Below, piece by piece: positions 18,718-23,729 of a stretch of 35,614 nucleotides of DNA. The notes under the pieces are model-generated. The model worked only from the letters and a program-made list of their open reading frames with translations. It was not told the origin of the DNA and did not search any database. Both the position numbers and the translations under genes were made by a program. Numbering within the stretch: the stretch's first letter is position 1; every line of letters begins with the position of its first letter. Origin of the DNA: Candidatus Tantalella remota (GTDB lineage: Bacteria > Omnitrophota > Gorgyraeia > Tantalellales > Tantalellaceae); the NCBI GenBank assembly GCA_030765685.1, contig JAVCCB010000007.1, positions 1 to 35,614 on the forward strand, in the 5' to 3' direction.

Positions 18718-19217
18718 CTCATTGAAGCAGATCGGGTGATTGCCCTCGCGTATAGTTTTGCGTAGCAAAACTGCGGGGGAGGAAAGTCCGGGCTCCCTAT
18801 AGCAGCGTAGCGGGTAACGCCCGTCCACCGCAAGGTGAGGATCAGAGCCACAGAGACGAGTCTGCTTCGCTCTTCAATATGTGGACACAGGTAGAGCTTT
18901 GCAGGACCAAGGTCCTGGGTAGGGGTTTACCCCTACGAAGCCCGACCGGAGTTTTACATATTGACAGGCGAAGTAGGGTGAAACGCGGCAATCTCTACGT
19001 GGAGCAAGACCAAATAGGGAAGGAATCAGGAAAGTCTGTTCATGCGGACTGACTGGTGCGGGGTAGCTAGTCCCGCCAAACTTCCGGGTAGGTTGCACGA
19101 GGTCTTAAGCGATTAAGGCCCCAGATGGATAATCACCACCCCTCCTTTTGTTACTATTTTATATTAGTTACAAAGGGAGGGGAGACAGAACCCGGCTTAC
19201 AGATCTGCTTCAATGAG
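18718..19217 (+). ncRNA. rnpB: RNase P RNA
   Basis: This is the catalytic RNA of RNase P, which matures tRNA 5' ends. The universal 5' core GAGGAAAGTCCGGGCTCC is at 18779-18796 and the 3' core ACAGAACCCGGCTTA near 19185-19199 (helix P4). P1 is a perfect 16-bp helix (18718-18733 with 19202-19217). P2 pairs 18735-18741 with 19131-19137. P3 includes AGTTTTGC-GTA-GCAAAACT. A hairpin of about 16 bp (19139-19182) between P2 and P4 fits P19. At about 500 bases it is longer than the 350-400 of most bacteria. The layout fits type A. A run of T residues directly follows P1, so P1 probably doubles as the terminator stem. Confidence 0.97.
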
Positions 19218-20138: not shown

Positions 20139-20167
20139 TTGACACCCGCGTAGCTATATGTTAACAT
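20139..20167 (+). promoter_or_regulatory. Promoter of arsR-feoA-feoB
   Basis: A perfect TTGACA (20139-20144), a 17-base spacer and TAACAT (20162-20167) place the transcription start near 20174. The -10 box lies inside the ArsR operator. Confidence 0.78.
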
Positions 20168-20193
20168 GTGAACAGTTGTTCATACGTTAACAT
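20158..20193 (+). promoter_or_regulatory. ArsR/SmtB-type operator
   Basis: ATGTTAACATGTGAACA, a 2-base GT centre, and TGTTCATACGTTAACAT form a 17-2-17 inverted repeat with 15 of 17 positions paired. The core TGAACA-N2-TGTTCA matches the known binding pattern of SmtB/CzrA-type ArsR repressors. It covers the -10 box and start site, so the bound protein would block transcription. The adjacent arsR (start 20203, GGAGG at 20194-20198) would then control itself and feoAB. Confidence 0.88.
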
Positions 20194-20202
20194 GGAGGAT
20201 CT

Positions 20203-20532
20203 ATGGTAAGGGAAAACATCATAAAGGATATCTCGAGAAACATGGAGACCGGTGAGGTGATCGATAAGCTTTCGCGGACTTTCAGCATATTCGGAGATCC
20301 TACGAGGACCAGGATAGTGTTTGCTTTATCAAAGGCGGAGTTGTGCGTTAACGAGCTTTCACAGATCTTGGATATGAGTCATTCTGCCATATCTCACCAG
20401 CTGAGGGCTCTGAAGGACCTGGATCTGGTAAGGTACCGTAAGGACGGCAGGCGGTCCTATTATTCTCTTAACGACGAACATATTGAGAACCTTTTTAATG
20501 AGGGGCTGAAACACGTACTAGAAAGGATGTAA
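20203..20532 (+). CDS. ArsR/SmtB-family metal-sensing repressor
   Basis: This 109-residue winged-helix repressor has the ArsR core: GDPTRTRIVFALSKAELCVNEL, the recognition helix HSAISHQLRALKDLDLV, and a wing (RYRKDGRRSYYSL). The C-terminal helix carries Asp91, His93, His104 and Glu107, exactly the spacing (D-x-H-x10-H-x2-E) of the alpha-5 zinc site in SmtB. The alpha-3 arsenic/cadmium CxC motif is absent: ELCVNEL has one cysteine. Zinc, or possibly cobalt/nickel, sensing is therefore the best guess. It lies directly before feoA-feoB, behind an operator-covered promoter, so it probably controls them and itself. Ligand identity is inferred. Confidence 0.92.
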   Translation: MVRENIIKDISRNMETGEVIDKLSRTFSIFGDPTRTRIVFALSKAELCVNELSQILDMSHSAISHQLRALKDLDLVRYRKDGRRSYYSLNDEHIENLFNEGLKHVLERM

Positions 20533-20539
20533 CCGATAA

Positions 20540-20773
20540 ATGGAAGAAACGAAACTTACGAATCTTAAGGCAGGCCAGACAGCCGTGGTGAAAGAGATAC
20601 GGGGCGGGGAGGGCGTATCTCACAGGTTATCCTCGCTGGGAATAAGGCCCGGCAAGGAGATAACCCATGTCAGTTCGCATTTCTGGCGGGGCCCGGTCAC
20701 GGTAAGGATAGGGAGAGCAAAGGTAGCAATAGGGTACGGTATGGCTCAAAAGATAGTAGTAGAGGTCAAATGA
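20540..20773 (+). CDS. feoA: Ferrous iron transport accessory protein FeoA
   Basis: FeoA is a 77-residue SH3-like cytoplasmic protein that helps the FeoB iron transporter. The pattern fits: LKAGQTAVVKEIRGGEGVSHRLSSLGIRPGKEI followed by GPVTVRIGRAKVAIGYGMAQKIVVE. It starts 7 bases after arsR and its stop overlaps the feoB start (ATGATGA around 20770), so the two are coupled. Confidence 0.95.
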   Translation: MEETKLTNLKAGQTAVVKEIRGGEGVSHRLSSLGIRPGKEITHVSSHFWRGPVTVRIGRAKVAIGYGMAQKIVVEVK

Positions 20774-22497
20774 TGACGGAGTCCCGTAAGAAAATACTTT
20801 TAATAGGCAATCCAAACGTAGGTAAAAGTGCTATATTCTCCAGACTTACCGGCGCGAGGGTGACAATATCCAATTATCCCGGGACTACGGTGGGGTTTAG
20901 TCAGGGGTTCATGAAACTGGGCGCCGAAAGCGCCGGGACCGTCATAGACGTCCCCGGTGTTTATAATCTCCAGCCGTTGTGCAGGGCCGATGATGTCGCC
21001 TGCAACATGGTGACGGACGGAGACATCATCGTGAATGTGATCGACGCTACTAATCTTGAAAGGAACTTGTTCCTCACGCTTGAGCTTCGAGAGAAAAACA
21101 TCCCTATGGTGGTCGTCCTTAATATGTGGGATGAGACCCGACATAAAGGAATAGAAATAGATCTCGAAAAACTGGAAGAGGAATTGGGCGTACCCGTAGT
21201 CTCGACCTGCGGGATCACGGGGGTAGGTATAAAAGAGCTTATAGAGAAGATCCGTATGGTCAAAGGAAAAGAATTCCCGGTGACGGATAGGGACAAAAAA
21301 TGGGAGGAGATCGGCAGGATATCTCAGACAGCACAGGTACTGCATTATCACCATCATACTTTTCTGGAAAGGGTCGAGGATATAAGTACTAACCCGGTCT
21401 GGGGGTTGCCAATAGCGGCACTGGTGGTGGTGCTGTCATTTAACGTGATCAGATTTATAGGGGAAGGCCTTATTGGATATGTGTGCGATCCATTTTTTGA
21501 GAAATTATGGCTGCCGGTCATGGAGAAGCTTAGTTCTTTTCTCAGTCCCGGAAGTCTTTTGCATGACGTTATAGTAGGAAAACTTATAGATGGACAAATA
21601 GATTTCTTTGCGTCTTTCGGCCTCTTGACGACAGGTATATACGTGCCGTTTGCTGCTGTTCTGCCCTACATGATAAGTTTTTATCTTGTCCTGGGATTTA
21701 TGGAAGATTCAGGGTATCTCCCGCGCCTGGCGACGCAGGTAGATAATCTCATGCATCATCTGGGGCTCCATGGATATGCCATAGTTCCCATGATATTAGG
21801 CCTTGGATGTAACGTTCCCGGTGCCATGGCGTTGCGTCTTCTGGAGAACAGAAGGGAAAAGTTCATAGCGGCTACCCTGATGGCTGTCTGTGTGCCATGC
21901 ATGGCTCAGATAGCCATGATAGTAGGCCTTGTGGGTGAGCGTGGGGGTGGTTATGTAGCGCTTATATTCGGTATCCTTTTTCTCCTCCTTATAGTAAAGG
22001 GCACGCTAATGAACCGGCTGATGAAAGGTAACAGTCCTGAGATACTGTGGGAGATCCCGCCGTACAGGATGCCTCAGTTCCAGGCGGTGCTGAAAAAGTT
22101 GTGGATGAGGATCTCCGGTTTTTTGACTGAGGCGGTGCCTTTTGTCCTGTTAGGAGTCCTCATTGTCAATTTTATGTACATGCTGGGGATCGTCGCGTAT
22201 CTTTCAAGACTTTTCGCCCCTCTCTTGAGCGGCCTGTGGGGGCTTCCCTCTGAGACGATATCAGCCATGATCATGGGATTTTTGAGGAAAGATGTAGCGG
22301 TCGGAATGCTCGCGCCACTCGATCTGACGACAAAGCAGCTGGTAATAGCCTGTACCATACTCGCTATATATTTTCCGTGTATTGCCACTTTTATTGTTAT
22401 GGTAAGAGAGTTGGGCATAAGGGACATGTTAAGATCCGCTGTCATAATGATATTCACGGCCGTATCGGTCGGCGCCATCCTTAATATTTTGCTTTGA
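20770..22497 (+). CDS. feoB: Ferrous iron transporter FeoB
   Basis: FeoB is the GTPase-linked inner-membrane Fe(II) transporter. The N-terminal G domain has G1 GNPNVGKS, the G2 threonine in NYPGTT, G3 DVPG and G4 NMWDE (with the FeoB-type NxxD). The membrane part from about residue 215 has the Gate domains, with LGLGCNVPGAMALRLLENRR and the conserved cysteines in VCVPCMAQ. The 575 residues are on the short side of the family (E. coli has 773), mostly because the helical linker and C-terminal tail are brief. The start is either ATG 20770 or the adjacent 20773. Co-transcription with arsR suggests metal-responsive control. Confidence 0.96.
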   Translation: MMTESRKKILLIGNPNVGKSAIFSRLTGARVTISNYPGTTVGFSQGFMKLGAESAGTVIDVPGVYNLQPLCRADDVACNMVTDGDIIVNVIDATNLERNLFLTLELREKNIPMVVVLNMWDETRHKGIEIDLEKLEEELGVPVVSTCGITGVGIKELIEKIRMVKGKEFPVTDRDKKWEEIGRISQTAQVLHYHHHTFLERVEDISTNPVWGLPIAALVVVLSFNVIRFIGEGLIGYVCDPFFEKLWLPVMEKLSSFLSPGSLLHDVIVGKLIDGQIDFFASFGLLTTGIYVPFAAVLPYMISFYLVLGFMEDSGYLPRLATQVDNLMHHLGLHGYAIVPMILGLGCNVPGAMALRLLENRREKFIAATLMAVCVPCMAQIAMIVGLVGERGGGYVALIFGILFLLLIVKGTLMNRLMKGNSPEILWEIPPYRMPQFQAVLKKLWMRISGFLTEAVPFVLLGVLIVNFMYMLGIVAYLSRLFAPLLSGLWGLPSETISAMIMGFLRKDVAVGMLAPLDLTTKQLVIACTILAIYFPCIATFIVMVRELGIRDMLRSAVIMIFTAVSVGAILNILL

Positions 22498-22542: not shown

Positions 22543-23729
22543 ATGAATAAAGGGATAAGATATATAGAAAAGCTCGAGGAGTTGTGGGGGCGAAAGCTTT
22601 CCCGCAAGGATTTTTTAAAAGGCGCCGCTGCCGCAGGTCTGACTTTTGCAGCATCTTCCTACATTTTTGGAATTTTTTCTAAATATAAGGCTTTTGCGGC
22701 GATACCGGAAAAGCGCGGTATGCACGAGGCTCTTTTCTATGAGAAGATGGGTTCCGAAGCCGTTCAGTGCCAGCTGTGTTTTAACAGATGCACTTTATCC
22801 AACGGGCAGAGGGGGTTTTGCCGTGTGCGTGAGCCCGTAGACGGCAAACTGTACTCCATGGTCTATGAGCTTGTCTGCGCGGTGCATGTGGACCCCATAG
22901 AAAAAAAACCGATGTATCATATGCTCCCGGGAAGCAAGTCTTTTTCTATAGCTACCGCCGGCTGCAATTCCCGTTGTAAATACTGCCAGAACTGGACCAT
23001 TTCTCAACGTCCGCCCGAGGAGACCAACAACAGGCGCATGAGCTGCGCGGGCCTTGTTTCCCGGCGGCGTCCAACGGGTGCCGGTCTATAGCCTACACAT
23101 ATACCGAACCGATCATTTTCTACGAGTATTCCATAGACGCGGCTAAAGAAGCCAGGAAAGCGGGTATTTACAACATATGGGTAACTGGAGGGAAGATAAA
23201 CACCGAGCCGTTGAAACACGCGTGCCGGTTCATAGATGCCGCCAATGTGGATTTTAAAGGGTTCAACGATAAGTACCTGCGGGAAGTCTGTGGCCAGAAG
23301 CTGGATAATATATTGGCGACACTTATCACTATGAAAGAACAGGGCATGTGGGTGGAGCTGACGAATCTGATCGTACCGACTCTTAATGACAATATGAGCG
23401 ATATAAGGAAAATGGTAAAGTGGATCCGGAAGAATCTCGGGCCGGATGTACCGCTTCATTTTTCACGGTTCTGGCCGCAGTACAAGCTCAGGTCTCTGTA
23501 TCCTACGCCGGTAGAGACTTTGAAACAGGCGAAAAACATAGCTTTGGAGGAAGGGCTACATTATGTCTATATAGGCAACGTCCCGGAGTTAAAAATGGAG
23601 AACACCGTATGTCCTGGATGCGGTAAGGTGGCAATAAAACGGCGGGGGTTCAAAGTCCTGGAGAATAACGTATCTGCCGAAGGGAAATGCAAGTTCTGCG
23701 GATATAGTATTGCTGGTATTTGGAAGTGA
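22543..23729 (+). pseudogene. amrS: AmmeMemoRadiSam radical SAM enzyme, frameshifted
   Basis: Two frames together make one complete protein of about 395 residues. The first (22543 to about 23061) has a Tat-like signal (SRKDFLKGAAAAGLTFAASS), the CQLCFNRCTL leader motif, and the radical SAM CNSRCKYC. The second (about 23061 to 23729) continues with SNGCRSIAYTYTEPIIFYEY and ends in a zinc-ribbon-like tail (CPGCGK...CKFCG). A single missing base near TTTCCCGG (23057-23064) explains the break: restoring one C joins ...AGLVS to PAASNGCRS. Without that the product is truncated at 23091. A sequencing or assembly error is as likely as real loss. Family members pair with Memo and AMMECR1 proteins; the substrate is unknown. 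Confidence 0.9.

Follow-up and report, generated by a model that had tools for sequence, protein, structure and literature searches.

An SmtB-type ArsR gene in the regulator slot in front of feoAB in Omnitrophota

Metal importers are normally shut by the metal-loaded corepressors Fur, DtxR and Zur, and metal exporters are normally switched on through metal-released repressors of the SmtB type. In DtxR- or Fur-controlled feoAB operons, the gene of the local metalloregulator lies just upstream of feoA. On the side of the metal-released repressors, SmtB of Synechococcus and AzuR of Anabaena control metallothionein, while CzrA of Staphylococcus aureus, a repressor of Zn/Co efflux, controls an efflux protein. 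The alpha-5 metal site of these ArsR/SmtB proteins has the signature DxHx10Hx2E (PMC8790569). The nearest case to the present one in the literature is CadX, an ArsR/SmtB protein of Streptococcus suis whose deletion raises feoA expression, although the authors report no direct contact of CadX with the feoA promoter (PMC11430099); unlike arsR-feoAB, CadX and feoA do not belong to one operon. Searches of an open-access library yielded no account of an ArsR-feoAB operon, subscription journals lying outside their scope, and a match to S. haemolyticus concerned ars and feoB genes that are unrelated. Among plasmids, none of the best 30 of 1380 records covered most of the ArsR part of a joined ArsR-FeoA-FeoB query.

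The window analysed here (the whole stretch of 35,614 nucleotides) corresponds to contig C35 in a genome of 2.03 Mb (G000), and the closest relatives of its FeoB belong to Candidatus Omnitrophota. As in the DtxR- and Fur-controlled operons, a metalloregulator gene stands just upstream of feoA, but it belongs to a different family from these two metal corepressors. The three genes form one tight operon (Table 1), with a gap of 7 nt between arsR and feoA and of -4 nt between feoA and feoB. NF033788, the model matched by ArsR, describes the NCBIfam metalloregulator ArsR/SmtB subfamily. The FeoA domain is accompanied by the G domain, two Gate domains and FeoB_C of FeoB (Pfam), and by these domains and the TIGR00437 equivalog cutoff the predicted product of feoAB is a FeoAB ferrous iron transporter. 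The feoB gene of the window gave the only strong FeoB_N match in the source genome.

Table 1. Features of the arsR-feoA-feoB operon, with positions in the window
Feature	Position	Strand	Description
sigma-70-type promoter TTGACA-17-TAACAT of arsR-feoA-feoB	20139-20167	+	consensus scan
operator, 17-2-17, ATGTTAACATGTGAACA-gt-TGTTCATACGTTAACAT	20158-20193	.	covers -10 and probable start site; predicted
arsR	20203-20532	+	109 aa ArsR/SmtB-family repressor; Pfam HTH_5 1.4e-17; NF033788 93 bits vs cutoff 55
feoA	20540-20773	+	77 aa FeoA-domain protein; Pfam FeoA 1e-20
feoB	20770-22497	+	575 aa ferrous iron transporter; FeoB_N 2e-50; TIGR00437 above cutoff

Compared with all PDB chains, ArsR matched the SmtB structures 1r1t/1r22 best (5e-23), and the CzrA group came second. 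An earlier note on this DNA had claimed that all four alpha-5 ligands are kept in SmtB spacing, and we indeed found D91, H93, H104 and E107 at exactly this spacing, which completes the DxHx10Hx2E motif. Features of the alpha-3N (CadC/AztR) type, namely CxC or CxxC in alpha-3 together with an N-terminal Cys, were not found in ArsR: its single, conserved cysteine, Cys48, lies in the ELCV motif and the N-terminus carries neither Cys nor His, so that an alpha-3N site is not expected. AzuR of Anabaena has no working alpha-3N site either (PMC8790569), and CzrA is likewise an alpha-5-only ArsR repressor. The winged-helix domain, the ligand motif and the inverted-repeat operator near or over the promoter place the protein among the alpha-5 type ArsR/SmtB regulators, and its ligands predict a site suited to Zn/Co-type metals. 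In fold family, in motif and in a promoter-overlapping inverted-repeat operator, ArsR resembles SmtB and AzuR. It differs from them and from CzrA in its target, a ferrous-iron importer instead of metallothionein or an efflux protein, and its operator arms comprise 17 bases as opposed to the 12-2-12 arrangement of SmtB and AzuR.

The 17-2-17 operator that had been proposed earlier over the arsR-feoA-feoB promoter was recovered, with 15 of the 17 arm positions matched. The next-best palindrome in the window had 13 matches, and ten Markov-simulated windows gave at most 13. The operator core, TGAACAgtTGTTCA, is found at 20169-20182, and a genome-wide pattern search with TGAACANNTGTTCA (TGAACA-NN-TGTTCA) returned this core as the one perfect copy in the 2.03 Mb genome. 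Six further sites had one mismatch; five lie within open reading frames and the sixth has no recognised gene just downstream, and on these grounds a wider ArsR regulon was rejected. Two-mismatch sites numbered 73 versus 63 for a reversed-pattern control, and the weaker sites are therefore mostly background. Neither a Fur-box-like nor a DtxR-box-like site was present within three mismatches near the arsR promoter, using general consensus boxes that may not fit the Omnitrophota proteins.

A search for the same arrangement and operator elsewhere had been set as a test, and it revealed that the locus is not unique, since both recur in the family with the operator conserved. Among 19 sampled genomes of the window's family, six carried an ArsR orthologue at E<=1e-12 (G000, G041, G123, G141, G274 and G363). 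All six had a feo gene directly downstream, which in five loci was the window-type feoA-feoB, G141 being the exception. The four alpha-5 ligands were invariant in the six orthologues (60-74% identity). Mean pairwise identity across the six loci reached 0.81 in the 28-nt operator core versus 0.23 in the adjacent 12-nt promoter spacer, and the -35, the 17-nt spacing and the operator were kept without gaps in five relatives; in G123, the promoter is situated about 370 bp upstream of arsR. In G141, the gene after arsR encodes a divergent FeoB, 32% identical, and a DtxR-FeoA fusion comes next. This locus is syntenic with that of the window (RNase HI, rnpB, arsR, feoB and amrS, with rnpB at 18724-19215 in the window) and keeps ArsR in front of another type of FeoB, indicating that the ArsR-feo pairing survives replacement of the transporter. 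The more distant genome G128 showed the order ArsR-feoA-feoA-feoB, with a Cys-x-Cys in its ArsR and the last ligand changed. Two ArsR relatives, in G180 and G182, do not adjoin feo genes; that of G182, which has ELCVCD, is found upstream of a P-type metal ATPase, the classical efflux pairing. In a genome-contig search, ArsR occupied the regulator slot in 2 of 12 loci, both from Omnitrophota.

Related loci carry other regulators at this position. DtxR directly precedes feoA of the same FeoB type in L025/G236, in G232, in G356 and on contig C72 of G141. Among more distant FeoB relatives, DtxR stands before feoA in Methanophagales (L030 and L031) and Fur in Cloacimonadota (L027), Omnitrophota (L028) and FCPU426 (L029). 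Across the Omnitrophota FeoB loci examined, the slot was held by Fur in at least 13 and by DtxR in at least 7, most of the remainder having no recognised regulator; these counts are lower bounds because only a few seed sequences served to detect regulators. The family loci form one clade (100/100) of the FeoB tree, in which loci with ArsR (5), loci with DtxR (3) and loci without a regulator (3) are intermixed. The FeoB of the window pairs with that of the DtxR-controlled G356 (96/94), and the starred branches require the ArsR label to have changed three times or more. That the regulator before feoAB can be exchanged is a new observation.

None of the five genomes with a window-type FeoB behind ArsR had DtxR, versus six of the seven others (two-sided Fisher p 0.015), a comparison of 12 incomplete MAGs with window-type FeoB in which counts are small and descent is ignored. 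Over all 19 family genomes, the contrast between ArsR and DtxR gave p 0.057 (Fisher, descent ignored). No Fur or DtxR gene occupies the slot before feoA in the window, and the source genome has a single Fur gene, away from the feo operon, and no DtxR. As Fur occurs in most family genomes, with or without ArsR, it cannot account for the DtxR contrast. Given DtxR and Fur in the same slot of relatives and the absence of DtxR under ArsR, a local iron corepressor appears to have been replaced by an alpha-5 ArsR. The presence of DtxR and Fur in the slot of relatives makes a part in iron regulation likelier than a chance association, and it is better matched by replacement of a sensor than by a transporter dedicated to zinc.

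From the operator position and the protein family, we infer that ArsR represses the operon and responds to metal. Our preferred reading, which we consider probable, is that arsR-feoA-feoB is autoregulated and that the SmtB-type ArsR acts as the local metal regulator of iron uptake, released by metal in the canonical direction. Dimeric ArsR would occupy the one long palindrome that covers the promoter of its own gene, preventing transcription, the operator position suggesting a block of RNA polymerase together with autoregulation. Metal at the inter-subunit alpha-5 site (D91 and H93 with H104' and E107') would then alter the affinity for DNA. ArsR fills the slot that DtxR or Fur holds in sister loci where FeoB is the same, which suggests that it regulates ferrous-iron uptake locally, in response to metal, in these genomes. 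Going by the rest of the family, the dimer would sit on DNA when free of metal and be released by metal, most likely Zn and possibly Co or Fe(II), as SmtB-type proteins are released by metal at alpha-5 (PMC8790569; PMC7174638). A metal-released repressor would raise feoAB as the sensed metal rises, and the most sensible use would be to increase iron import when a competing metal, e.g. zinc, exceeds iron. This canonical direction fits a DtxR/Fur-like slot poorly, since release of the repressor by metal would not keep the imported metal in balance, and the genome's Fur protein could itself act on feo, a point against the preferred reading. The place of a corepressor before an iron importer is repeatedly taken by an SmtB-type protein whose operator is conserved, and DtxR or Fur remains in sister loci. 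There are two options, a reversal of the allosteric switch or a coupling of iron import to a surplus of another metal, and they raise the question of how these uncultured, little-known Omnitrophota decide when to import iron.

The first of these options has a modest chance. Fe(II) or Zn at alpha-5 would strengthen DNA binding, making ArsR a corepressor that stops the import of iron once metal is abundant. DtxR and Fur, both metal corepressors, share the slot for the same FeoB, and DtxR is missing where window-type FeoB sits under ArsR; the exchange and the absence together would imply an equivalent negative feedback. We know of no precedent for metal as a corepressor among alpha-5 ArsR proteins, however, and the alpha-5 site is canonical, without a visible inverting change. 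SmtB and AzuR, moreover, leave DNA on metal binding (PMC8790569; PMC7174638). The fuller version, in which the ArsR of this clade has turned into an iron or general-metal corepressor of feoAB that replaced DtxR, with metal tightening DNA binding, we regard as unlikely. Between the two directions, metal release is somewhat likelier than corepression.

It is improbable that FeoB imports a broad range of divalent metals, among them zinc, and that ArsR reports on the metal imported. Matches to ZIP and ZnuA were both lacking in five of the six ArsR genomes (G000 and four of the five others) versus 4 of the 13 remaining genomes (Fisher p 0.057; all MAGs), and many other Omnitrophota have ZIP-family transporters directly upstream of feoA (L138:540-1295, L140:1495-2259 and similar loci). 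Yet G356, G164, G190 and G343 also lack ZIP and ZnuA while having no ArsR, and with this overlap, and with MAGs throughout, a wider metal role of FeoB is suggestive only. Furthermore, FeoB passes the ferrous-iron equivalog cutoff, its closest relative is under DtxR, and positive feedback would result if zinc released the repressor of its own importer. The source genome also contains a CDF exporter.

Many ArsR-family proteins respond to non-metal signals, and the single conserved Cys48 in the ELCV motif would suit a feo-linked ArsR that senses redox state or sulfide/persulfide, the alpha-5 residues being structural only. Persulfide sensors of the family rely on a Cys pair, however, which this ArsR lacks, and the invariance of all four ligands in the family members makes such a sensor distinctly improbable. 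Finally, that arsR is a chance neighbour controlling only itself or an efflux gene elsewhere is very improbable: efflux is the target of classical ArsR proteins, as the P-type ATPase locus of G182 illustrates, but chance adjacency is rejected by the recurrence upstream of feo in all six orthologue loci, and the 7 nt spacing, the one perfect operator in the genome and the location of five of the six one-mismatch sites inside ORFs likewise argue against it.

Several minor observations were made at these loci. In the G141 operon (L169; G141:C92:24000-31500), a single transporter, a long FeoB that has a cytosolic helical domain, is flanked by metal sensors of two kinds, ArsR and a DtxR-FeoA fusion protein. 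This helical domain (PF17910) of the second FeoB of G141 had no match in the FeoB of the window. At another locus, a putative 10-TM heavy-metal exporter (ArsP_2, PF11449; L114:618-1655) lies directly upstream of feoA. The sole Fur-family gene of the source genome (G000:C27:8346-8726, L176) lies next to small ORFs that by eye resemble NifX-type and Gly/Arg-rich proteins, not to iron transporters. Downstream of feoB, at 22543-23729 of the window, an AmmeMemoRadiSam radical SAM gene is split by a frameshift, either an assembly error or a pseudogene; in G141 the gene is unbroken and encodes 390 aa (L169:339-1508).
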